The notes beneath the pieces were generated by a model. The model worked only from the letters and a program-made list of their open reading frames with translations, was not told where the DNA came from and made no database searches. A stretch of 51,357 nt of DNA, taken from positions 1 through 51,357 of IMG/VR virus record IMGVR_UViG_3300046507_000096; one strand, 5' to 3'. Of this stretch, positions 18,413-28,302 are shown one piece after another. Both the position numbers and the translations under genes were made by a program. Every line of letters begins with the position of its first letter. The stretch's first letter is position 1. This DNA is from a virus.

Positions 18413-18607
18413 ATGACATATGAGATTAGCCGTCAGGTTACGCGTTCAGAAGAACGCAAGGCACTCACTGCTCAACTGGCATACGATAAACAGTATGCTA
18501 AGCGTGAAGCAGGTAGAGCCCTAGTCAAGAGACAGGGCAATAATCCCAACTCTATCTTGAGCAAGGCATTGAATGCTGTCTCAAGAATTTCTGCTTGGAG
18601 GGGCTGA
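18413..18607 (+). CDS. Small basic protein, unknown
   Basis: 64 residues from ATG 18413, with GAGG seven bases upstream; an upstream in-frame ATG at 18389 lacks one. It is Arg/Lys-rich and helical (SRQVTRSEERKALTAQLAYD). It overlaps the ATP-grasp gene by TGATG, so it may belong functionally to the amidoligase island or simply lead into it. Confidence 0.55.
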   Translation: MTYEISRQVTRSEERKALTAQLAYDKQYAKREAGRALVKRQGNNPNSILSKALNAVSRISAWRG

Positions 18608-19428
18608 TGTCCTATATCCTTCGTTACGGAAATGCAGGGCTCAAGATGTGCCCTGTCATCGGTGAAACTGCTGGTCTTGATGTATTCAAGACTGGTGATG
18701 CTCTCCCCAAAGATGCTGAATATGTATTCCGTTGGGGTACTACAGCAGGTGTGGATAATGGTCCGAAGATTGTCAACAAAATCCCTGCTATCAGGGAGAC
18801 ATGTGATAAGCGTCTCTTCCGTGCCAAGTTGGCAGCTAAGGGCCTAGCCCCTCGTACATGGACTGATGCTGATGCGTTCCGTAATGAAGTCGGGAACAAG
18901 GAATTTGATGTTCTCGTGCGTCCCTCTGAACATAAACGTAGCGAAGGCATCTATCATTGCACCAACGCATGGGATGTAATGGATGCTGTCCATAAGATTG
19001 GATATGAATTCTACATCTCTGAGTACATCAAGAAGGTGGCTGAGTATCGTGTCTTCGTCGTCTCTGGACGTGTTGCTTGGGTGATCGAGAAGACGCCTCA
19101 GAACAAGGATGATGTATCATGGGGGTGCGTTGATGCAGGAGCATTCGACTATGTGGTATGGCAGGATTGGCCATTGTCTGTGGTACAGAATGCTGTTGAT
19201 GCGTTCTATGTAAGCTCGCTTGACTTTGGTGCTATCGATGTAATCCAAGCAGCCGATGGCACAGCTTACACATTGGAAATCAATACGGCCCCCTATCTCA
19301 CCCCCTATTATGCAAGGACAATCGGTAAGACGTTCAAGTATATCATGAAGAATGGGCGAGATAGGTTCCCGGCAATGGTGTTTAACACATGGCGTGATGC
19401 AGCGCATCCGGCTATTCAATTGGATTGA
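18607..19428 (+). CDS. ATP-grasp carboxylate-amine ligase
   Basis: 273 residues from ATG 18607, behind GGAGGGG. It is an ATP-grasp fold of the RimK-like type: nucleotide/substrate-side segment 'FDVLVRPSEHKRSEG' (about 100-114), 'EYRVFVVSGRVAW' (about 146-158), and a metal-binding end 'FGAIDVI...YTLEINTAPYL' with Asp211, Glu224 and Asn226. These enzymes join a carboxylate to an amine through an acyl-phosphate. The gene opens an island with two further COOH-NH2 ligases and two amidotransferase-fold enzymes, implying a peptide-like or amide product. The substrate cannot be read from sequence. Confidence 0.8.
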   Translation: MSYILRYGNAGLKMCPVIGETAGLDVFKTGDALPKDAEYVFRWGTTAGVDNGPKIVNKIPAIRETCDKRLFRAKLAAKGLAPRTWTDADAFRNEVGNKEFDVLVRPSEHKRSEGIYHCTNAWDVMDAVHKIGYEFYISEYIKKVAEYRVFVVSGRVAWVIEKTPQNKDDVSWGCVDAGAFDYVVWQDWPLSVVQNAVDAFYVSSLDFGAIDVIQAADGTAYTLEINTAPYLTPYYARTIGKTFKYIMKNGRDRFPAMVFNTWRDAAHPAIQLD

Positions 19429-19430
19429 AC

Positions 19431-20345
19431 ATGCGAGAACATACGAGAAAGAATAATAGGCTTGTAGCCAAGCTTAAAGCTCAGATGGATGCTGCTGTCA
19501 CAATGACAGGCTATATTGATCCTCGTCATGGTGGTAGTATCAATCGTAATCCCAACTACCTAGTGTATTGGGCTGTCATTGATGAGAAGGGCGAGACATA
19601 TCATGACAGTAGTTGGCAGTGCCATGTTGGCCTGAACTATTCTGAGGGGGTACAAAAGTATTTCCTTCTCAATAGATTGCAGTTTGGAAACGCAAAACGC
19701 CCTCTCCCAGATGAAATCATCGATGAGTATCTGCTGTACATCACCAAGCATAGTCCTTACAAGGATGCCTTCTATCGTAAGGGTGGCAAGAAGGTGAGGG
19801 AGTATGGTTATGTCGTGATGGACACAACTGTTCCAGCTAACTACATGGCCTCTGCTCTCGTAGCCCTTCGTATGATTTGGGAATATCCGGGCATTCCTTT
19901 CCTCTGGTCTAAGCTGGTGAAGGAAGGGGTTCATCCTGATGTGGCTTATTGTCATGCGTATCAGGTGTCTTGTAACGATCTGAAGACTGTGAGTACAAAT
20001 GAATCATGGTCTCATACATCTTGGGATGGACACCAATTCACCAATAAGATGGTGAAGAATTTCATCAGGAATAAAATCAAGGTGAAGAATGCTCCATACG
20101 TAGAGGGTGGCAAGTATGCCCCTATGTGCTTCATGTATGGTGATCCGGCTGCCGTGAGTTATCTCCGTGATAAAACCCTTGCTTGCCATGAACAAGCTAA
20201 GAAGAAAAAGAAGGGCACCAACAACATCTTCAATCAAGGCAACCAACGTGATAATGTTAATGTTGATGATTTCATCCCATTGTGGGCTGAGATGCTGAAA
20301 GAAAACTACGGAAACGTAGAGGAATGGGTGAATAAAAATGGGTAA
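19431..20345 (+). CDS. Unknown protein of the amidoligase island
   Basis: 304 residues from ATG 19431; a TTG at 19425 overlapping the previous stop is less likely. It is soluble, rich in Tyr, Trp, Lys and Asn, with segments such as 'NYLVYWAVIDEKGETYHDSS' and 'DGHQFTNKMVKNFIRNKIKV', and a Lys/Asn-rich low-complexity stretch near 265-285. It sits between the ATP-grasp ligase and the amidotransferase-fold hydrolase and overlaps the latter by eight bases. I do not recognise the family. Co-location suggests a partner, acceptor or further enzyme of the same pathway. Confidence 0.7.
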   Translation: MREHTRKNNRLVAKLKAQMDAAVTMTGYIDPRHGGSINRNPNYLVYWAVIDEKGETYHDSSWQCHVGLNYSEGVQKYFLLNRLQFGNAKRPLPDEIIDEYLLYITKHSPYKDAFYRKGGKKVREYGYVVMDTTVPANYMASALVALRMIWEYPGIPFLWSKLVKEGVHPDVAYCHAYQVSCNDLKTVSTNESWSHTSWDGHQFTNKMVKNFIRNKIKVKNAPYVEGGKYAPMCFMYGDPAAVSYLRDKTLACHEQAKKKKKGTNNIFNQGNQRDNVNVDDFIPLWAEMLKENYGNVEEWVNKNG

Positions 20346-20991
20346 GGTGTATATCGAAGGTGGACAGGCCAACTACAATGAAATGTGGCGTCGGTTCGGA
20401 TGGGCTATCGTTGGTGATATGTTTGACGCTGATGTCATTCAATTCACTGGTGGCTCTGATGTAAGCCCCCATTATTATGGAGAGGCTGCTCATCCTCATG
20501 CTCAAGTTAATCTTGATCGTGATGCCCGTTGCAAAATTCTATTCAATATGGCTAAGCGTAGGGAAATTCCTATGGCTGGTATCTGCCGTGGTGGACAATT
20601 CCTCAACGTCATGAATGGTGGCAGTATGTTCCAGCATTGTGATGGTCATGGTATCTATGGCACACATAAGGCCACCATCCTTGCTACAGGTAGTGAGGTG
20701 GATGTTACGTCAACGCATCACCAGATCATGAGGCCAAATCGTGACAAAGCCATCATCCTTATGGAAGCTAATCCTAAGCTTTCTACGTTCAAGGAACATA
20801 TGTCTGTCGATGAACCAACAGACAAGTGGTATGTCAGCGATAAGCAGGAAGAAGATGATATCGAAGCAGTGTTCTATCCCGATACGATGTCGCTATGCTT
20901 CCAGCCCCATCCCGAATACTGCGATCCCAAATCTAGCTGTGTCGCTACGTATCGGAACTTCCTGCGTAACTATTTGGAACTAGATGTATGA
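20338..20991 (+). CDS. Class I glutamine amidotransferase-fold hydrolase (peptidase C26-like)
   Basis: 217 residues. Catalytic triad of the class I amidotransferase fold: nucleophile Cys83 in 'GICRGGQFLNV', and His191/Glu193 in 'CFQPHPEY'. 'IQFTGGSDVSPHYYG' near residue 34 and 'STHHQIM' near 125 place it closer to gamma-glutamyl hydrolases of the PuuD/C26 type than to synthetase-bound amidotransferase domains. It could hydrolyse a gamma-glutamyl bond made by the neighbouring ligases, or supply ammonia. It overlaps the upstream and downstream genes slightly. Confidence 0.8.
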   Translation: MGKVYIEGGQANYNEMWRRFGWAIVGDMFDADVIQFTGGSDVSPHYYGEAAHPHAQVNLDRDARCKILFNMAKRREIPMAGICRGGQFLNVMNGGSMFQHCDGHGIYGTHKATILATGSEVDVTSTHHQIMRPNRDKAIILMEANPKLSTFKEHMSVDEPTDKWYVSDKQEEDDIEAVFYPDTMSLCFQPHPEYCDPKSSCVATYRNFLRNYLELDV

Positions 20992-21161
20992 AACAAGTTA
21001 TTCCCCCGAGCTTCCAGAGGAAGATGTTGGCGGATGCTTTGGTCAATCTGGAAACGAGTAGGTTTGTTGTTGACTTTGACGAATACAAGAAGTTGAAGGC
21101 AAGACAGAAGAGAGCTTATAGAGAGTGCGAAATTTATCAATTTCCCTCAAAAAAGGAATGA
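20988..21161 (+). CDS. Small basic protein in the amidoligase island
   Basis: 57 residues, starting MKQVIPPSFQRKMLADALVN, then a charged helix 'FDEYKKLKARQKRAYRECEI'. It starts on ATGA overlapping the previous stop. No motif; coding is supported by the overlap and full-length open frame. Confidence 0.55.
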   Translation: MKQVIPPSFQRKMLADALVNLETSRFVVDFDEYKKLKARQKRAYRECEIYQFPSKKE

Positions 21162-21165
21162 GTGA

Positions 21166-21534
21166 ATGTTCGAAGTTGGGAAGCAATACGTAAGGTCCGA
21201 TATGCCGGGCTATATAATGAGGGTGGTGGCACTAACTGACTTGTCGGCAGTCATTGTGTACGATGCGGTTGGTGAAAGCTCTTACGTAAGAGCTGGCAGA
21301 GAACTTCTTTGGGCGCTGGAGGGTGTTGAAAATCTCTGGAAAGAATACATTAGCCCTCGTTCTACCATTCCCAAATGGTATAATGTGTTCGAAAATGCTT
21401 CTGAACCAACCAAGATTTGGCTCTCTCAAACTCCCCATGGGAGTAAAGAAGGCGCTAAAGAGTATGCTAAACTCTATGTAGGTGGTTGCAAACTTATTGA
21501 TACAATTGAGATTACCTATACGGAGAAGAAATAA
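21166..21534 (+). CDS. Unknown protein in the amidoligase island
   Basis: 122 residues. The N-terminal half looks like a small beta-barrel ('FEVGKQYVRSDMPGYIMRVV', 'LSAVIVYDAVGESSYVRAGR'). The rest is mixed, ending 'LIDTIEITYTEKK'. It begins four bases after the previous stop with AAGGA upstream, and the next gene follows within two bases. No family is recognised. Confidence 0.6.
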   Translation: MFEVGKQYVRSDMPGYIMRVVALTDLSAVIVYDAVGESSYVRAGRELLWALEGVENLWKEYISPRSTIPKWYNVFENASEPTKIWLSQTPHGSKEGAKEYAKLYVGGCKLIDTIEITYTEKK

Positions 21535-21535
21535 T

Positions 21536-22927
21536 ATGTGCGGCTTGGTAGGCGTTATTGGTGATCTGTTTGTAGCAGATCGAAAAGCTTTCAAGTTTAT
21601 GCTTGAATTGGATACAGTTAGGGGCCCACATTCCACTGGTATCGCTCGCATCACAGCAGATTTCCCGAAGAAGGTGGAAATCTGTAAGGATGTTGGTACT
21701 CCGTGGGATTTGCAACGCCTCAATCAAGAAGAGTTCTTCAATCATGAGAAGGAAACAGGTCATATTCATGGCAACCTGATTGGCCTTATGGGCCATAATC
21801 GATGGGCAACTGTCGGTAAGGTGACGCCTGATAATGCCCATCCCTTCCTAGCAGGGAAGATTGTTGGTGCTCAGAATGGAACATTGCCTCACTATCAAAG
21901 GACGAAACTTGATGATTGGGAAATGTTCGACACCGACACAGAAGCATTGATTCACAATATCGACAAGCATGGTGCTGAAGCTGTCATCCCTCGTATCGAT
22001 GGAGCTTGGGCTCTCACTTGGTACAACAAGGAAGACGATACGTTTAACATTCTTCGGAATGTTGAGCGTCCTCTCGTCTACGCTTGGAAGAAGGGCGGCA
22101 AGGTTTTGTATTATGCGTCCGAAGCATGGATGATCTATGCTGCTACAGAGAAGTTCAACATCGATATTGAGAATGATCAGGTGTACAAGTTCGAGAAGGA
22201 CTTCCTGTATTCTTGGAAGCTTGGCACCTGTGCTCAGTTCAGCAAGGCTGTAGGCACGTCTAAGCCTTTGAAGGGGTATGTAACCCCTCCGGTTGACTAC
22301 AGCAAGTGGAAGACCTCTACAGCGGCTTCTAGTGCCAATGTATTCACTGGAGGTGGTAGTTTCACTGGAAATTTTTCCGATCAGCATTCCGAATGGTCAA
22401 AAATCTCTTATTGGTTTAAGAAGATTGGTCAAGAGGTGGAGTTTACTCCCCTTATATGCCTTCGGACAGATGATCAGAAGAAGCAATACCTCCCCTGCCT
22501 CACAAGGAATGGCCATCAGAACGTTCGTATCTACACCGAAGGTCTGAGTGCTGCTCATACGATGCTGTTGGAGGATTTCAATATCCAATCCCTCTCTGCT
22601 AAGATCAGGAAGGTGAAGGCTCAGAAGGGCGGAGGGTTCTATCTCCTTATCGATAAGGACACTCTAACTCCTGTTGAAGTGAAGAAAGCAGCTCAATCCG
22701 ATCTGTTCACATCATCTGACACAATGATGATTGCGAATGGCAAGGTGATTGAGCCTGATGAATACGACCGTAAGGTGGCTGTTGGTTGTGCATGGTGCAC
22801 ACATACTCCATCACGTGAAGATGCTGGCCATCTCCATTGGTTTAATGAAACAGACTTCCTTTGCGCTGACTGCGCTGTCAATGAAGAAGTTCTACAATAC
22901 ATCCCCGAACTTGTGAAGGTTTCGTAA
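21536..22927 (+). CDS. Class II glutamine amidotransferase with C-terminal zinc-binding extension
   Basis: 463 residues from ATG 21536, chosen because it gives MCGLVGVIGD: after Met removal Cys2 is the Ntn-type nucleophile, which requires this exact start (GGAGAAG lies upstream). Supporting motifs are 'RGPHSTGIA', 'GHNRWATVG', 'GAQNGTLPHY' and 'DTDTEAL', as in GlmS/asparagine synthetase-type glutaminase domains (about 1-230). No synthetase or isomerase domain follows. Residues 240-410 are unassigned, and the end carries CxxC at 418/421 and CxxC at 443/446 with intervening His, a zinc-ribbon-like knuckle. It would release ammonia from glutamine for the adjacent ligases. Confidence 0.85.
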   Translation: MCGLVGVIGDLFVADRKAFKFMLELDTVRGPHSTGIARITADFPKKVEICKDVGTPWDLQRLNQEEFFNHEKETGHIHGNLIGLMGHNRWATVGKVTPDNAHPFLAGKIVGAQNGTLPHYQRTKLDDWEMFDTDTEALIHNIDKHGAEAVIPRIDGAWALTWYNKEDDTFNILRNVERPLVYAWKKGGKVLYYASEAWMIYAATEKFNIDIENDQVYKFEKDFLYSWKLGTCAQFSKAVGTSKPLKGYVTPPVDYSKWKTSTAASSANVFTGGGSFTGNFSDQHSEWSKISYWFKKIGQEVEFTPLICLRTDDQKKQYLPCLTRNGHQNVRIYTEGLSAAHTMLLEDFNIQSLSAKIRKVKAQKGGGFYLLIDKDTLTPVEVKKAAQSDLFTSSDTMMIANGKVIEPDEYDRKVAVGCAWCTHTPSREDAGHLHWFNETDFLCADCAVNEEVLQYIPELVKVS

Positions 22928-22928
22928 T

Positions 22929-24062
22929 ATGAGCAAGATTAAAATGATGGTAGGTGCCGATCCCGAACTGTGGATTTATGATAATCAGGCCAAGAAAATC
23001 ATCTCGGCTGATGGCTTGTTCCCCGGAACGAAGGAAGAGCCTTTCAAGGTGCCCTATGGTGCCATTCAGGTTGATGGTATGGCTGCTGAATACAATATCG
23101 ATGCAGTGTCGAAATCTAAACAGTTTGTATTCAATAACATTGCTGTCCTTCGATCCCTTCGGGATGAAATCAAGGCTCGCAATCCTGCTCTGGATTTCTC
23201 TTTCAAGTTTGGCCCTGTGGCTGAATTTGGCGCTGAGTATATTGCTGAACAGCGTGAAGAAGCTCGTCGTCTTGGCTGTACCCCTGACTTCGATGCATAC
23301 AAGGATGGACAGCCTAACCCTGCCCCTGATGCAGAGATGCCTTTCCGTACAGCATCGGGCCATGTGCATGTTGGTTGGGGAGATGATTATGATATTACTG
23401 ATCCTGAACATCTCGAAGCTTGTGTCATGATGGCTAAGCAGCTTGATAGCAGCGTTGGTATCTATCTCCTTCAACTTGAAGGTAAGGCCGGGAAGAAGCG
23501 GCGGAAGCTTTATGGTAAGGCTGGTGCATTCCGTCCGAAGTATTATGGTATGGAATACCGCACCCCTTCGAATGTATGGCTCGCTGATACGCATCTGATG
23601 ACTTGTATGTTCAATGGTGTTCGAAATGCCTTCGATGCCCTTATGGCAGGGATGAGAAATTACGAAGAATACCCCGAAAATCATCAAGATATTGTCAATG
23701 CCATCAATGAAAGTAAACTGAGATGGGCGGTTGATAACTACGGTTGTTGGGCAGCTCCTGTTTGGGAGGAACATCCGGTCAATGTTGACACATTAGATGA
23801 TTTGTATGCCAATTGGTATCATTATCGTGACGCATCCAAGGATGAACTGGTCAAAGCTCCGCCTAATAAGTTTTGGGCTGTTGATGAGGTTGTTCCGGCA
23901 GCACCAAATCTCGGTGAAATCTTAGCTCAGAATATGGTTCCCAGAGCTATCCCTGTAGCTGAAATTGAAATGGCTGGAGTGGCATTCGATGTCGCCCCTG
24001 ATTTTGATCCTTTCGATGAAGAAGAAAATGTTGTCGAAGTTGATGAGGATGACGAGGATTAA
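22929..24062 (+). CDS. phiEco32-type COOH-NH2 ligase (amidoligase, type 2)
   Basis: 377 residues. 'MVGADPELWIYD' near 7-18, 'IQVDGMAAEYNID' near 47-59, 'TASGHVHVGWGDD' near 141-153 and 'YYGMEYRTPSNVW' near 205-217 are the conserved acidic/His blocks of the phage COOH-NH2 ligase family (glutamine-synthetase-like fold, ATP-dependent amide formation), first noted in phiEco32-like phages. The last 40 residues are an acidic tail (EEENVVEVDEDDED), unusual for the enzyme core. It stands directly after the class II amidotransferase gene. Confidence 0.8.
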   Translation: MSKIKMMVGADPELWIYDNQAKKIISADGLFPGTKEEPFKVPYGAIQVDGMAAEYNIDAVSKSKQFVFNNIAVLRSLRDEIKARNPALDFSFKFGPVAEFGAEYIAEQREEARRLGCTPDFDAYKDGQPNPAPDAEMPFRTASGHVHVGWGDDYDITDPEHLEACVMMAKQLDSSVGIYLLQLEGKAGKKRRKLYGKAGAFRPKYYGMEYRTPSNVWLADTHLMTCMFNGVRNAFDALMAGMRNYEEYPENHQDIVNAINESKLRWAVDNYGCWAAPVWEEHPVNVDTLDDLYANWYHYRDASKDELVKAPPNKFWAVDEVVPAAPNLGEILAQNMVPRAIPVAEIEMAGVAFDVAPDFDPFDEEENVVEVDEDDED

Positions 24063-24064
24063 TC

Positions 24065-24622
24065 ATGGCCTATGATGATTTGGTGTATGCCCGTGGTAGG
24101 CTGAATGATACAATCATTCGTTATAATGAACGGGCTGTAGTGGTTGATAGTGTAGTTCCTAGCAAGGATGGATTGGTGATTAAAAGCACTGAAATCCTCA
24201 CAGGGAATAGTGTCAATCATCCTCTCGTTGAGTTCGATCTCACTCCTGTCCGTCTAGGTATGTCCAACATGCCTAATGGCGGAGTGAGCTATGTAGTTAG
24301 AATGCCTCTCCGCCATGACTGGCGGCAGGGGCTCCGTCAACAGAATACAATCTTCGCTTGGGGCGAAAAGAATTGGGATGCTCATGCAATCGCTAAGACG
24401 ATTGAGAATGACTATCCCTCTGTCGAAGCTGCTCGTGAGTTGATCGTTGAGGAAGACAGGGACTATCTTGCATGGTGTAGAAACTTCTGCATCGATAAGA
24501 AGAATGACATCTATTACAGAACCTTTGGTAAGATTGGTAACTTCGTTGATAAGACGAAGAACTATCTTCTTGATCAGAAGTTCTTTTGGGTGGAACAGCA
24601 TTTGAATGAGGCGTTGAAATGA
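24065..24622 (+). CDS. Unknown protein between two amidoligases
   Basis: 185 residues with GAGG before the start. 'LVYARGRLNDTIIRYNERAV' opens a beta-rich first part with 'HPLVEFDLTPVRLGMSNMP'. The second part is helical ('AIAKTIENDYPSVEAARELI', 'KIGNFVDKTKNYLLDQKFFW'). It overlaps the next amidoligase gene by four bases. The tight coupling to ligases on both sides makes a shared complex or substrate likely, but no family is recognised. Confidence 0.65.
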   Translation: MAYDDLVYARGRLNDTIIRYNERAVVVDSVVPSKDGLVIKSTEILTGNSVNHPLVEFDLTPVRLGMSNMPNGGVSYVVRMPLRHDWRQGLRQQNTIFAWGEKNWDAHAIAKTIENDYPSVEAARELIVEEDRDYLAWCRNFCIDKKNDIYYRTFGKIGNFVDKTKNYLLDQKFFWVEQHLNEALK

Positions 24623-25461
24623 AAGATATGTTCACTGTTCTCGATCTCGCCAAGCGTACCGATGGTAGGTTTGGCGTAGAGATTGAAGTGGAAGGTAAGA
24701 ACCTGCCAATCAACGGTAAGGATGCCGACTTTGACAAGGTGTGGGTTACACACAAGGAAGGCTCTATCGACGCCGAAGGTATGGAATATGTCTTCAGGAA
24801 GCCTCTCCTGCTGGAAGAAGTGATGCCTGCTCTTGATCTTCTTGAGAAGAATTATCAGCAGGCTCAGAGTGTCGTCAATGAAAGTTGGAGGGCTGGTGTT
24901 CATGTTCATTACAATGTTCAGGACTTCACCCCCCTTGAATTAATGACATTCGTCACTACATACTACCTACTGGAAGATTATCTCCTTCATTGGTGTGGTC
25001 CTGACCGTGTAGGAAACCACTTCTGCCTTCGTGTTGGAGACGCAGAAGGAGGCTTTCTCTCTCTTCTCAAGACATGTAAGACAAAGGATTGGAGAAATCT
25101 GAATACGGATAAAATCCGTTATCAGGCTCTCAACCTGAATGCCTTGCTCAAGTATGGCTCTGTCGAATTCCGTTCGATGCGTTCCACTCGAGACCACGCA
25201 GTCATCTACAAGTTCGTCCTTCTGATCGACCAGATTGCTAAGGGCTCCAAGAAATTTTCTTCTCCTGAAGATGTGATTGAGAGCGTTAGCCGTATGGAAG
25301 GTGGGGAAATCTTTGTTCGCTATGTCATGGAAAACTTGGCTGATGAATTCCTCAAGATTGAAGGAATTGATATGTGGGACACAATCCATGAAATCCAGCC
25401 TCTGGCTTACATGGTGGATTGGAAAACATTCAATCGTGAAAAGATCAACCCGTTTGTGTGA
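24619..25461 (+). CDS. Amidoligase_2-family COOH-NH2 ligase
   Basis: 280 residues. Family blocks: 'FGVEIEVEG' (Glu21, Glu23), 'DAEGMEYVFRKPL' (Glu53, Glu56), 'AGVHVHYNVQDFTPLEL' (His95, His97) and 'KYGSVEFRSMRSTRD' (about 180-194), i.e. the metal-binding Glu/His set of glutamine-synthetase-like amidoligases. It is a second, distinct ligase from the phiEco32-type gene two positions upstream. It starts by ATGA overlap behind GAGG. Confidence 0.8.
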   Translation: MKDMFTVLDLAKRTDGRFGVEIEVEGKNLPINGKDADFDKVWVTHKEGSIDAEGMEYVFRKPLLLEEVMPALDLLEKNYQQAQSVVNESWRAGVHVHYNVQDFTPLELMTFVTTYYLLEDYLLHWCGPDRVGNHFCLRVGDAEGGFLSLLKTCKTKDWRNLNTDKIRYQALNLNALLKYGSVEFRSMRSTRDHAVIYKFVLLIDQIAKGSKKFSSPEDVIESVSRMEGGEIFVRYVMENLADEFLKIEGIDMWDTIHEIQPLAYMVDWKTFNREKINPFV

Positions 25462-25464
25462 CAT

Positions 25465-25653
25465 ATGAACGATGGTTATAAAGATAATGATGCACGACAG
25501 GTGGTGTTTCGATACTTCCGCTATCGTGTAACGAATACAGTGGGTGTCTACACCTGCTGGTACAGTGGGACCATTCTCAAGATTGGTCAAAGAAAAGACA
25601 TCATGGCTCGTTTCAAACAGGCTATTGGTGAAATGCAGGGCGCAGCCCTCTAA
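25465..25653 (+). CDS. Small protein, unknown
   Basis: 62 residues, starting MNDGYKDNDARQVVFRYFRY, with a GIY-like turn 'TCWYSGTILKIGQRKDIMAR' that recalls small nucleic-acid-interacting domains, without enough residues for a nuclease. There is no strong ribosome site; it is three bases downstream of the amidoligase. Confidence 0.5.
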   Translation: MNDGYKDNDARQVVFRYFRYRVTNTVGVYTCWYSGTILKIGQRKDIMARFKQAIGEMQGAAL

Positions 25654-25667
25654 AAATAAGGTGTGAA

Positions 25668-26423
25668 ATGCAAGAATTTTTCAAAAGTGTTTTCGTTGGT
25701 TTTCTGACAGGCATTCTTGTAGGTATCGTCTATCTTCTGCTAGCCGGTGCTGTTAAGGCTTCTGAACTCGATCAGCTCCAGCAGCAGGTGATTAATCCGG
25801 TTGTCCAGCTTGATCGTGATTGCTCTGGCGTCGCTATCAAGACCGACATTCCGGAAACTACATACATTGTCACTGCTCTTCACTGCAAGGGTGACAAGAG
25901 TGGCTTTGTCAACATCGATGTCAAGGAACGCCAGAAGGTGATTAGTGTCACCAATGTCGTGTATGATGTCGTCCGTGTTGATCCGAAGCAGGATATTATG
26001 CTCGTCAAGACCCGTCAGAAGCTAAATGTTGATTTGGCTACAATCGCCCATACAGACCCAAGGGAAGGCGAGAAGGTATTTGCAGTAGGTTATCCCCTCG
26101 GATGGACAAGAACGATCACAGAGGGCTATGTGGGCGGCTATGAGAGCATTGACGCTGCACTGTCCGGTTTCAACCAGTTTGGTAATGAACGTGCCCTTCT
26201 TCGTGCCACTGCTCCTATCACTGGTGGTAACTCTGGTGGTGGACTGTTCATCAAGAATGGTGACAACTATGAACTCGTAGGCATCACTGATGCTGGTGTA
26301 AATTCATTCCCTCAAGCAGCTCTCTTCGTTACACAGGACGCCATTCGTGAATTGGTAGATGGTGCTCTCAAGTATGAGAAGAGCAATCTGAAAGTTGAAG
26401 AAGACAAGCGTAGTCAGAAGTGA
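25668..26423 (+). CDS. Membrane-anchored trypsin-like serine protease
   Basis: 251 residues. Residues about 8-29 form one hydrophobic segment (uncleaved anchor or signal peptide, possible cleavage near 'VKA'). The protease domain has the full S1 triad: His72 in 'VTALHC', Asp109 in 'KQDIMLV', Ser189 in 'ITGGNSGGGLF'. Cys52 and Cys73 could form a disulfide, consistent with the periplasm. There is no PDZ domain, so it is a minimal DegP-like protease. It lies just downstream of the amidoligase island, so it may process the same envelope target or a host protein. Confidence 0.8.
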   Translation: MQEFFKSVFVGFLTGILVGIVYLLLAGAVKASELDQLQQQVINPVVQLDRDCSGVAIKTDIPETTYIVTALHCKGDKSGFVNIDVKERQKVISVTNVVYDVVRVDPKQDIMLVKTRQKLNVDLATIAHTDPREGEKVFAVGYPLGWTRTITEGYVGGYESIDAALSGFNQFGNERALLRATAPITGGNSGGGLFIKNGDNYELVGITDAGVNSFPQAALFVTQDAIRELVDGALKYEKSNLKVEEDKRSQK

Positions 26424-26562: not shown

Positions 26563-28302
26563 ATGGGACGACCAATCCTGAAAATACCACATAAGTGTGG
26601 TAGTAGGGATGCTTTACAATGCTTTGAAGAAGACGACGGTCGTATTACAGGCTATTGTTTCAGTTGTGGTAAGTGGGTGAAAGACCCCCTTGGTAAAGGA
26701 GCGAAGGTCGATGATCTCGATCTTCCTCCTGCTAAGTCGCCTCAGCAGATAGCTATTGAAATGGCTGAAATTAGTGGATATCAATGTATTGACATTCCTC
26801 AGAAGAAACTTCGATCTGTCAATCTAGACAAGTTTGGCATTAAGGTTGGGGTGAGTGAGCAAGACGGAAAGACGCCTGAAACAATTTACTACCCTTATCG
26901 GAAGAAGGGGAAAGTTGTCGGATACAAAATCAAGCTTCTACCGAAAGGAAATGAAGCTAAACGAATTTGGTCCATCGGAGATACCAAAGACGCTCCAGAC
27001 AATCCAATCGAACCCTTCGGATGGAAAGAAGCTGTAGCTCGTGGTGGTAAACGCCTAATCATTACAGAAGGTGAAGATGACGCTGTTGCCACAGAGGCGA
27101 TCATGCAGCGCCATACTAAGGATGAGTGGAAGGATCATATACCTGCCATCATCTCGCTTCCCCACGGGGCTGGTAGTGCCCATGAGACGCTATCCAAGTG
27201 GAAGAAGGAAATCACCGCTCGTTGGAAAGAAGTTATTCTTCTATTCGATATGGACCAAGCTGGACTGGACGCCATACAGAAATGTATGTTGGTTATCCCA
27301 GAAGCTGTTACAGTAAAATTGCCTGCTAAGGATGTAAATCAGTGTATCATTGATGGCGTATCCAAAGCAACGTTTGATGCTATTTCATTCAATCAAGAGA
27401 AGCCTAAGAACTCTCGAATTGTATTTGGTGAAGATTTACATGAAGAGGCTAGATTTGCTGCCCAATATGGTGAGCTGTCTTGGCCTTATCCACATCTCAA
27501 TGAAGTGACTAGAGGTATTCGTCTAGGAGAAACCATCTACATTGGCGCTGGCGTCAAGATGGGAAAATCAGAACTCCTGAACGATATAGCTGCTCATTTC
27601 ATCAAGGTGCATGGCGTCAAGGTGTTTATGGCAAAGCCAGAAGAAGCTAACAAGAAGACATATAAGCTTCTAGCTGGTAAGATTGTAGGGAAGAGGTTCC
27701 ATGACCCCAAGGTCGAGTTCGACAACGAAGCCTATGACGAGGCTGGTAAAGTGTTGGCGGGCAAGTTGTCCATGGTTAATCTGTATCAGCATCTTGGCTG
27801 GGACAGCCTTCGTGACGATATTGTTGCTGCTAGCCATTGGGGAGCCAAAGCAGTCTTCATTGATCCCATCACCAATCTCACGAATGGTGTAGATGCAGGG
27901 GATGCTAACACAGAACTACAGAAGATTGCTCAGGACTTGTCAGCAATGGCATTGAACCTGAACATTGTCATCTTTATCTTCTGTCACTTGAAAGCTCCTG
28001 ATGGTAACATCGCTAAGGAGAAACGAGAAAAGTATTATCGTGAACAACATTTCATTGGTTTGGGGGCTTGCCCTCATGAACTTGGTGGTGATGTCTTGTC
28101 AGCTCAATTCGCTGGATCACGGGCTATGATGCGTTCTTGTAACATGATGATTGGTTTGGAAGGGAATAAGGATAAGGATTTGGACGAAGAAGTCCGTAAC
28201 ATCCGTAATCTGGTTCTTCTTGAAGACCGTGAGTTTGGTGAGAGTGGTAAGTTTCCTGTGTATTGGTCTAAGAATACAACTTTGTTTAGAGAGTTAGAAT
28301 AA
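26563..28302 (+). CDS. DNA primase-helicase (T7 gp4-like)
   Basis: 579 residues with AGGAG before the start. N-terminal zinc-binding module with Cys12, Cys20, Cys32 and Cys35. TOPRIM part with 'LIITEGEDDAVAT' (about 166-178) and 'ILLFDMDQAGLDA' (about 224). RecA-type helicase part with Walker A 'GAGVKMGKSE' (about 328-337), 'AVFIDPITNL' as Walker B region and 'IFIFCHLKAP' as the sensor strand. It unwinds the fork and primes the lagging strand with the polymerase encoded two genes later. All domains are present in T7 order. Confidence 0.9.
   Translation: MGRPILKIPHKCGSRDALQCFEEDDGRITGYCFSCGKWVKDPLGKGAKVDDLDLPPAKSPQQIAIEMAEISGYQCIDIPQKKLRSVNLDKFGIKVGVSEQDGKTPETIYYPYRKKGKVVGYKIKLLPKGNEAKRIWSIGDTKDAPDNPIEPFGWKEAVARGGKRLIITEGEDDAVATEAIMQRHTKDEWKDHIPAIISLPHGAGSAHETLSKWKKEITARWKEVILLFDMDQAGLDAIQKCMLVIPEAVTVKLPAKDVNQCIIDGVSKATFDAISFNQEKPKNSRIVFGEDLHEEARFAAQYGELSWPYPHLNEVTRGIRLGETIYIGAGVKMGKSELLNDIAAHFIKVHGVKVFMAKPEEANKKTYKLLAGKIVGKRFHDPKVEFDNEAYDEAGKVLAGKLSMVNLYQHLGWDSLRDDIVAASHWGAKAVFIDPITNLTNGVDAGDANTELQKIAQDLSAMALNLNIVIFIFCHLKAPDGNIAKEKREKYYREQHFIGLGACPHELGGDVLSAQFAGSRAMMRSCNMMIGLEGNKDKDLDEEVRNIRNLVLLEDREFGESGKFPVYWSKNTTLFRELE

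Follow-up and report, generated by a model that had tools for sequence, protein, structure and literature searches.

Phage amidoligase cassettes and related systems

Here, we focus on a block of genes for putative amide-bond chemistry in a viral DNA of 51,357 nucleotides (IMG/VR record IMGVR_UViG_3300046507_000096), the whole of which is called the window below. By its structural and replication genes, as well as by its best matches, the window belongs with podoviruses of the Zobellviridae type. Blocks of this kind have been recognized since 2009. One was given the name "Peptidoglycan Modification Cassette" (Duhaime 2017, PMC5498523), and that paper follows Hardies 2013 in listing RIO-1, phiEco32, 7-11, PA11, tf, MR299-2, LUZ24, PaP3 and CW02 as carriers. 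The cassette and the peptidoglycan hypothesis were repeated for phiM6 (PMC6256558), and two further papers quote Iyer 2009 for cell wall modification together with superinfection exclusion (PMC10580990, PMC11318856). No product is reported in the papers cited here, of which Iyer 2009 and Hardies 2013 are known only through those that cite them; this agrees with the original prediction, made from the letters of the window, which knew of no demonstrated product. Two points presented here are useful additions: the complementarity of two gamma-glutamyl-cleaving enzymes, C26 and GGCT, and the sorting of the genes into constant and private ones. Neither is stated in the papers cited here other than Iyer 2009 and Hardies 2013. 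Since every complete copy keeps one or the other cleaving fold, the vague notion of an amide-bond pathway becomes a chemical hypothesis that can be tested.

The cassette in the window is a further copy of this widespread, already described block. It has the same enzyme families as the published cassette and the same place by primase and replication genes. It differs in carrying C26 in place of GGCT, in having a divergent ATP-grasp gene at the 5' rather than the 3' end, in two private inserts (D and E), in an acidic extension of its COOH-NH2 ligase, and in a protease gene that precedes the primase. Closest in layout are the Zobellviridae phages PA11/O4 and CVT22 (loci L003 and L002), in which the order B, C26, insert, class II glutamine amidotransferase (GATase), COOH-NH2 ligase, H and amidoligase is identical to that of the window. 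Their ATP-grasp, however, is of the common clade and follows the amidoligase on its 3' side, which is not the case in the window.

Two other known systems share parts of this chemistry. The Puu system of E. coli and the Spu system of P. aeruginosa have in common with the cassette a ligase of the glutamine synthetase (GS) fold and a C26 hydrolase, which add and remove a gamma-glutamyl group, and the PuuA/PuuD putrescine route has been described (PMC9397018). PuuD and Spu also provide the closest solved relatives of the C26 protein in the window. In contrast, the cassette ligases come from different GS-like families, the cassette has an ATP-grasp, a class II GATase, B and H, and the oxidoreductase, dehydrogenase and transporter genes of Puu/Spu are all missing from the window block. 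The R2K/RimK-like ATP-grasp enzymes share with the ATP-grasp of the window the motifs for peptide-bond-type ligation (Burroughs 2015, PMC4431377), but the window block lacks the partner GNAT or ARG genes of the R2K systems.

Composition and conservation of the cassette

Five intact enzyme genes lie within 7 kb on the + strand, with families assigned by hidden Markov models (HMMs) from Pfam and PHROGs: an ATP-grasp ligase (A*, 18607..19428), a Peptidase_C26 hydrolase (C, 20338..20991), a class II GATase (F, 21536..22927), a phiEco32-type COOH-NH2 ligase (G, 22929..24062) and an Amidoligase_2 enzyme (I, 24619..25461). The constant proteins B (19431..20345) and H (24065..24622), also on the + strand, make up the seven core genes, and neighbors overlap or are separated by tiny gaps. 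Open reading frame (ORF) positions and HMM families thus bear out the genes, positions, strand and tight spacing that had been claimed. The COOH-NH2 ligase, Amidoligase_2, ATP-grasp and class II GATase that characterize the phage amidoligase cassette are all present in one block with a gamma-glutamyl-cleaving gene inside it (C26), and the block stands beside replication genes. Directly downstream on the + strand, a primase/helicase (26563..28302) serves as a landmark for the place in the genome where the cassette is regularly found; a primase/helicase cluster occurs in 85 loci, at a median of 4.6 kb past G.

Relatives of G were found on at least 555 viral contigs, and 80 viral loci obtained via the G alignment were taken into the comparison, together with 12 annotated phages and with one profile per gene. 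With the window this gives 93 loci (92 others), and 55 viral loci with enough flank are counted as complete. Genes A, F, G, H and I are present in 55/55 of these, B in 53/55, C in 51/55 and GGCT in 18/55, with all seven core genes together in 49/55. In 33 of the 55 the genes run BCFGHIA, whereas the order of the window, ABCFGHI, is shared by 4 other loci, and BCAFGHI occurs in 5. Cassette junctions are tight (median gaps of -8 to +11 bp) with the exception of C-F, the sole variable gap, which has a median of 67 bp and an interquartile range of 2-443 bp. As the order is kept across dozens of loci whose COOH-NH2 ligases are only about 38-60% identical to that of the window, co-occurrence of the genes is far from chance. 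A private novel island was therefore ruled out. Scans started from the H alignment, the B alignment or the window ATP-grasp alone returned no loci.

The original prediction had named two findings that would speak against a working pathway: loss of catalytic residues in relatives, and a gene order found nowhere else. Both were looked at and neither held. The ATP-grasp residues K68, E146, R148, K162, D211, E224 and N226 are kept in 86-87/87 relatives, those of the COOH-NH2 ligase (D11, E13, E54, H145, H147, R202, K204, E209 and R211) in 94-95/95 and those of the amidoligase (E21, E23, E25, H95, H97, R130, E183 and R185) in 90-92/92, while Cys2 of the class II GATase is found in 71/72 rows having a residue at that column. 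With near-invariant catalytic residues and a recurrent gene order, the idea of a working, co-inherited amide-bond pathway gains support, and the earlier interpretation as a whole is partly supported; its proposal that ammonia or an amino acid is ligated to an envelope glycan, tag or protein stays a hypothesis.

The module also appears with different orders and neighbors in the unrelated groups of LUZ24, Kuravirus ES17, Rhizobium phage N3_13, Aeromonas phage LAh_8 and RIO-1. The crAss-like phage phi14:2 carries it as well, with H and I not in the stretch read. G was detected in 316 of 50,697 phage records; at least this many sequenced phage records and at least the 555 viral contigs mentioned above thus hold the ligase, therapy-tested phages among them. 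In the evolved phage FJK, both sequenced stages have missense mutations in the amidoligase and in the class II GATase (PMC11450229), and the presence of changes in both genes hints that the two may be under joint selection.

Putative gamma-glutamyl-cleaving enzymes of cassette phages

The C26 protein of the window is predicted to be a gamma-glutamyl hydrolase of the class I GATase fold resembling PuuD and SpuA. It matches PF07722 with 79.5 bits against a cut-off of 20.5 (4e-22), and its Cys-His-Glu triad (C83, H191 and E193) is kept in 72/72 sequences. Nearest among solved structures are Lin1909, the entries 7d4r/7d50/7d53, which we take to be P. aeruginosa SpuA, and PuuD (6vtv). The NCBIfam models for gamma-glutamyl-GABA hydrolase and gamma-glutamyl-CDP-amidate hydrolase give weaker matches, far below cut-off. 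C26 and GGCT have unrelated folds, yet both take off gamma-glutamyl groups, and GGCT acts on glutamyl residues whose alpha-amino group is free.

When the whole records of 60 cassette phages were searched for the two families, C26 was found in 50 and GGCT in 23. Only L015 and L040 have neither, and both contigs begin inside or just before F, so that the place of C26 is cut off. Every untruncated record (58/58) carries C26 and/or GGCT, and all 8 of those without C26 carry GGCT (p=2.6e-4, a value not corrected for shared ancestry). Across the cassette phages, C26 and GGCT tend to replace one another; in RIO-1, GGCT occupies the C26 slot itself, between B and F. L047, a fragment of 20.8 kb, has neither enzyme on it.

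Among the 50,697 phage records, GGCT is present in 266 and C26 in 58. Tallies made per genus, not record by record, give for G the sum of GGCT and C26 in Escherichia (93=93+0), Vibrio (22=7+15) and Klebsiella (3=0+3), and G equals GGCT in Aeromonas (11=11) and Proteus (8=8); for Pseudomonas, 121 records with G stand against 104 with GGCT and 16 with C26. The presence of a gamma-glutamyl-cleaving enzyme in every complete copy checked narrows what the block could make. It had been suggested that the C26-like enzyme trims gamma-glutamyl bonds, and this prediction is strengthened by the PuuD/SpuA-type solved relatives and by GGCT in phages lacking C26.

A proposed gamma-glutamyl amide pathway and its alternatives

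From these data, we see an even chance that the seven genes encode a cytosolic amide-bond pathway with a gamma-glutamyl intermediate that is removed by C26 or GGCT. What the data show are the genes, their intact active sites, their co-conservation and the C26/GGCT complementarity, from which the chemistry is deduced. The GS-fold ligases G and I and the ATP-grasp A* would use ATP to activate carboxyl groups and would couple these to amines; G and/or I would form a gamma-glutamyl amide with a free alpha-amino group, and A* would add a further carboxyl-amine bond. F would hydrolyze glutamine and pass ammonia to a ligase, or might itself be a gamma-glutamyl amidohydrolase. C26, or GGCT in other phages, would then take the gamma-glutamyl group off, which implies that this group might serve as a temporary cap or a handle for turnover, much as it does when putrescine passes through PuuA and PuuD. 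Two obligate partners would be B, probably an enzyme, and H, probably an adaptor. Most likely, the acceptor would be made in the replication phase and would be either a small metabolite (an amine or an amino acid) or a soluble precursor of the envelope. Whatever part such a product might play in infection, the core contains no flippase, glycosyltransferase, signal peptide or membrane protein, and no hydrophobic segment above 1.3 is seen in A, B, C, F, G, H or I; the chemistry would accordingly take place in the cytosol. Because GGCT needs a free alpha-amino group, the glutamyl group would have to be terminal. A small amine, a side-chain amine or an envelope precursor would fit this better than a stem peptide, with its D-Glu, or a ribosomal tag.

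This last point bears directly on the published view that the cassette modifies peptidoglycan for superinfection exclusion, with the ligases putting unusual linkages on peptide side chains of cytosolic precursors and thereby blocking later phages. It has been proposed for RIO-1-like phages, phiM6, phiEco32 and others (PMC5498523, PMC6256558, PMC10580990), and the ATP-grasp profile weakly reaches D-Ala-D-Ala ligases. However, the Glu of the stem peptide is D and N-acylated, so that GGCT could act on an appended group only, and the core is devoid of the export and membrane functions listed above. None of the papers cited here offers an experiment for the hypothesis, and the envelopes of the hosts whose phages carry the cassette differ greatly. 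We regard peptidoglycan modification as unlikely.

Several considerations also weigh against the gamma-glutamyl pathway. No substrate, product or phenotype is on record for the cassette. The gamma-glutamyl specificity of the phage C26 and GGCT proteins is presumed from their families, and C26-fold proteins also include other amidotransferases. The p value for complementarity ignores shared ancestry, and the records lacking C26 come mostly from a few lineages. It could also be that an amidating ligase has F as its only partner, and that no gamma-glutamyl step takes place. Lastly, the FJK evolution data and the observations on PaP3 and ZRK32 considered below do not isolate the cassette. A bolder version of the pathway, in which the gamma-glutamyl group would serve as a protecting group on the way to a specific small molecule or an altered precursor, with C26 and GGCT as interchangeable deprotection enzymes and B as a new pathway-specific enzyme family, strikes us as rather doubtful.

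The ligases and the class II GATase

A* belongs to the RimK/R2K-like assemblage (phrog_2599, 1e-17), in which it forms part of a divergent clade. The core ATP-grasp residues (ExR, ExN and the conserved Lys) are present, but the Pfam models R2K_2 and R2K_3 fall narrowly short of their curated cut-offs (PF18299, 1.7e-5 with 25.1 bits against 26.2; PF14243, 24.5 against 26.3 bits), and thus A* falls just outside the R2K clade as Pfam delimits it. It groups within a distinct clade of 11 (support 1.0), and 10/11 members lie outside the usual slot after the amidoligase, either ahead of B or in the C-F interval. In loci of this clade, the stretch read contains no ordinary ATP-grasp; the ATP-grasp step has therefore been retained while the gene was swapped for one of a divergent clade and relocated. 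L073 and L074 each have two ATP-grasps.

The profile of A* has its best matches among RimK alpha-glutamate ligases, and the R2K clade was proposed to modify host proteins (PMC4431377, PMC7824862). Both observations favor protein tagging, in which the ATP-grasp and the other ligases would attach amino acids or short peptides to proteins of the host or the phage and redirect transcription or translation, and C26 or GGCT would reverse the modification. H could supply a binding module, as its AlphaFold2 model (pLDDT 96) resembles SH3/Tudor/KOW-like barrels, a common module of this kind, though the matches in the PDB are partial and weak (E>=0.05). Simple RimK-type tailing, however, needs neither two more ligases nor a glutaminase, and no conserved target or carrier gene accompanies the cassette. 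The sole recurrent small ORF is a Zn ribbon with a variable C-terminus that is missing from the window. Tagging is, in our judgment, quite unlikely.

This ORF (53-101 aa, CxxC...CxxC, mostly with an acidic tail) directly follows the ATP-grasp on its 3' side in about 24 loci, including L019, L024, L035, L037, L045, L049, L050, L054-L057, L068 and L088, and it resembles the Zn ribbon that ends F. A LysW-type carrier was considered and rejected, since the ORF has no conserved C-terminal Glu.

The A* profile also weakly matches the graspetide maturases MdnB/CdnC/MvdC, which would suit a ribosomal peptide, such as D, E or the further small ORF J, cyclized by the ATP-grasp and the amidoligases. Yet no relatives of D, E or J exist in the 93 loci, no small ORF of the cassette is conserved across loci, and a conserved precursor peptide next to the ATP-grasp is lacking; a graspetide-like product is extremely improbable.

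The class II GATase F is a GlmS-type glutaminase with a Cys2 nucleophile (PF13522, GATase_6, 5e-17; phrog_18128, 1e-73) and has GlmS relatives in the PDB. It had been described as a stand-alone glutaminase. The glutaminase stands, but the protein is more than that, as a C-terminal part of about 260 aa follows that ends in a conserved four-Cys Zn ribbon (C418, C421, C443 and C446). The codon before Cys2 is ATG in 53 relatives, TTG in 9, GTG in 3 and ATT or ATC in about 16 (L003, L009, L010, L021, L022, L031-L033, L036, L040, L051, L062-L064, L077 and L091), while the window has ATG. A Shine-Dalgarno-like stretch lies upstream of the ATT/ATC-start genes. A cysteine is needed at position 2, and these codons therefore look like real AUU/AUC starts, which would explain the truncated database starts in O4 and ES17. 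In Rhizobium phage N3_13, two distantly similar class II GATase genes surround the cassette (L010:7110-8246 and L010:13687-14823).

G (PF14395, 5.5e-10; phrog_3815, 9e-65) and I (PF12224, 8e-11; phrog_7469, 7e-60) are without credible sequence relatives in the PDB, and G of the window has an additional acidic C-terminal extension of about 110 aa. We take both to belong to the GS-like superfamily, so that the block contains two ligase folds and not three, as had been counted. In L014:8182-12591, amidoligase and H genes lie on both strands around G as an inverted duplication, which may be an assembly artifact.

Constant proteins B and H

The four genes that the original prediction had treated as one set of unknowns fall into two classes. 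Those at 19431 (B) and 24065 (H) are constant cassette members, whereas D and E, like the protease K downstream, are lineage-specific, which sets the constant partners apart from private inserts. In B, C64 and R147 are conserved in 52/52 sequences, E151 in 48/52 and H195 in 43/51, and because of these residues B may be an enzyme. Its AlphaFold2 model (pLDDT 84) has no match in the PDB, while a fold search returned 18 viral proteins with a probability of 0.99-1.00. The named matches, from CVT22, CW02, RIO-1, Cronobacter phage GAP52, Aeromonas phages 4_4572, LAh_6 and LAh_8, and Proteus phage 3H10_20, belong to cassette-phage groups. Profile alignment of B with gp14/gp15 of LUZ24 and gp87/gp88 of ES17 found no support, and B is therefore not shown for these two phages. 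In LAh_8, the adjacent gp5 and gp4 (L011:7234-8999) resemble each other (5e-5 and 2e-5), and B may have been multiplied there. H, of 185 aa, sits between the two GS-fold ligases.

These two constant proteins are of importance for a further explanation, auxiliary nitrogen or amino-acid metabolism, by which glutamine nitrogen recycling or a gamma-glutamyl (glutathione-like) cycle would feed phage replication. It was argued for phage ZRK32, which has a similar enzyme set and improves host growth on nitrate or ammonium (PMC10945688), and this phage is among the G matches in the phage records. PaP3 genes 44-47, which include cassette homologues as judged via the UFV-P2 table, are of the middle-expressed class (PMC4707531), which would also be in keeping with such a role. 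The growth effect of ZRK32, however, is not tied to cassette genes, and two constant proteins of unassigned function together with the unusual GS-like ligase pair suggest a specific product instead of bulk metabolism. The close family is, moreover, almost confined to phages: among 84,980 bacterial genomes only 7 phage-like contigs of metagenome-assembled genomes were found, all 7 with cassette genes in the same block, and the family was present in 0/14 control genomes. We consider auxiliary metabolism of this kind very unlikely.

Private inserts and the downstream protease

The small ORFs D (20988..21161) and E (21166..21534), both on the + strand, lie in the variable C-F gap outside the core. 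On the 3' side, a trypsin-like protease related to HtrA/DegP (K, 25668..26423, +; PF13365, 1e-17) has its H, D and S motifs and an N-terminal hydrophobic segment with a hydropathy peak of 2.58 at residue 8. The protease had been noted just downstream of the island, but its membership is not supported. An ORF at 25465-25653 intervenes, and among the 92 other loci only L015 has a relative (L015:5365-6144), likewise 3' of the amidoligase; a membrane protease was for this reason ruled out as a pathway member. A defense system was rejected as well, with no PADLOC match in the core and generic trypsin-like matches only for K. One of the PADLOC matches of K, a weak one, is to LmuA.

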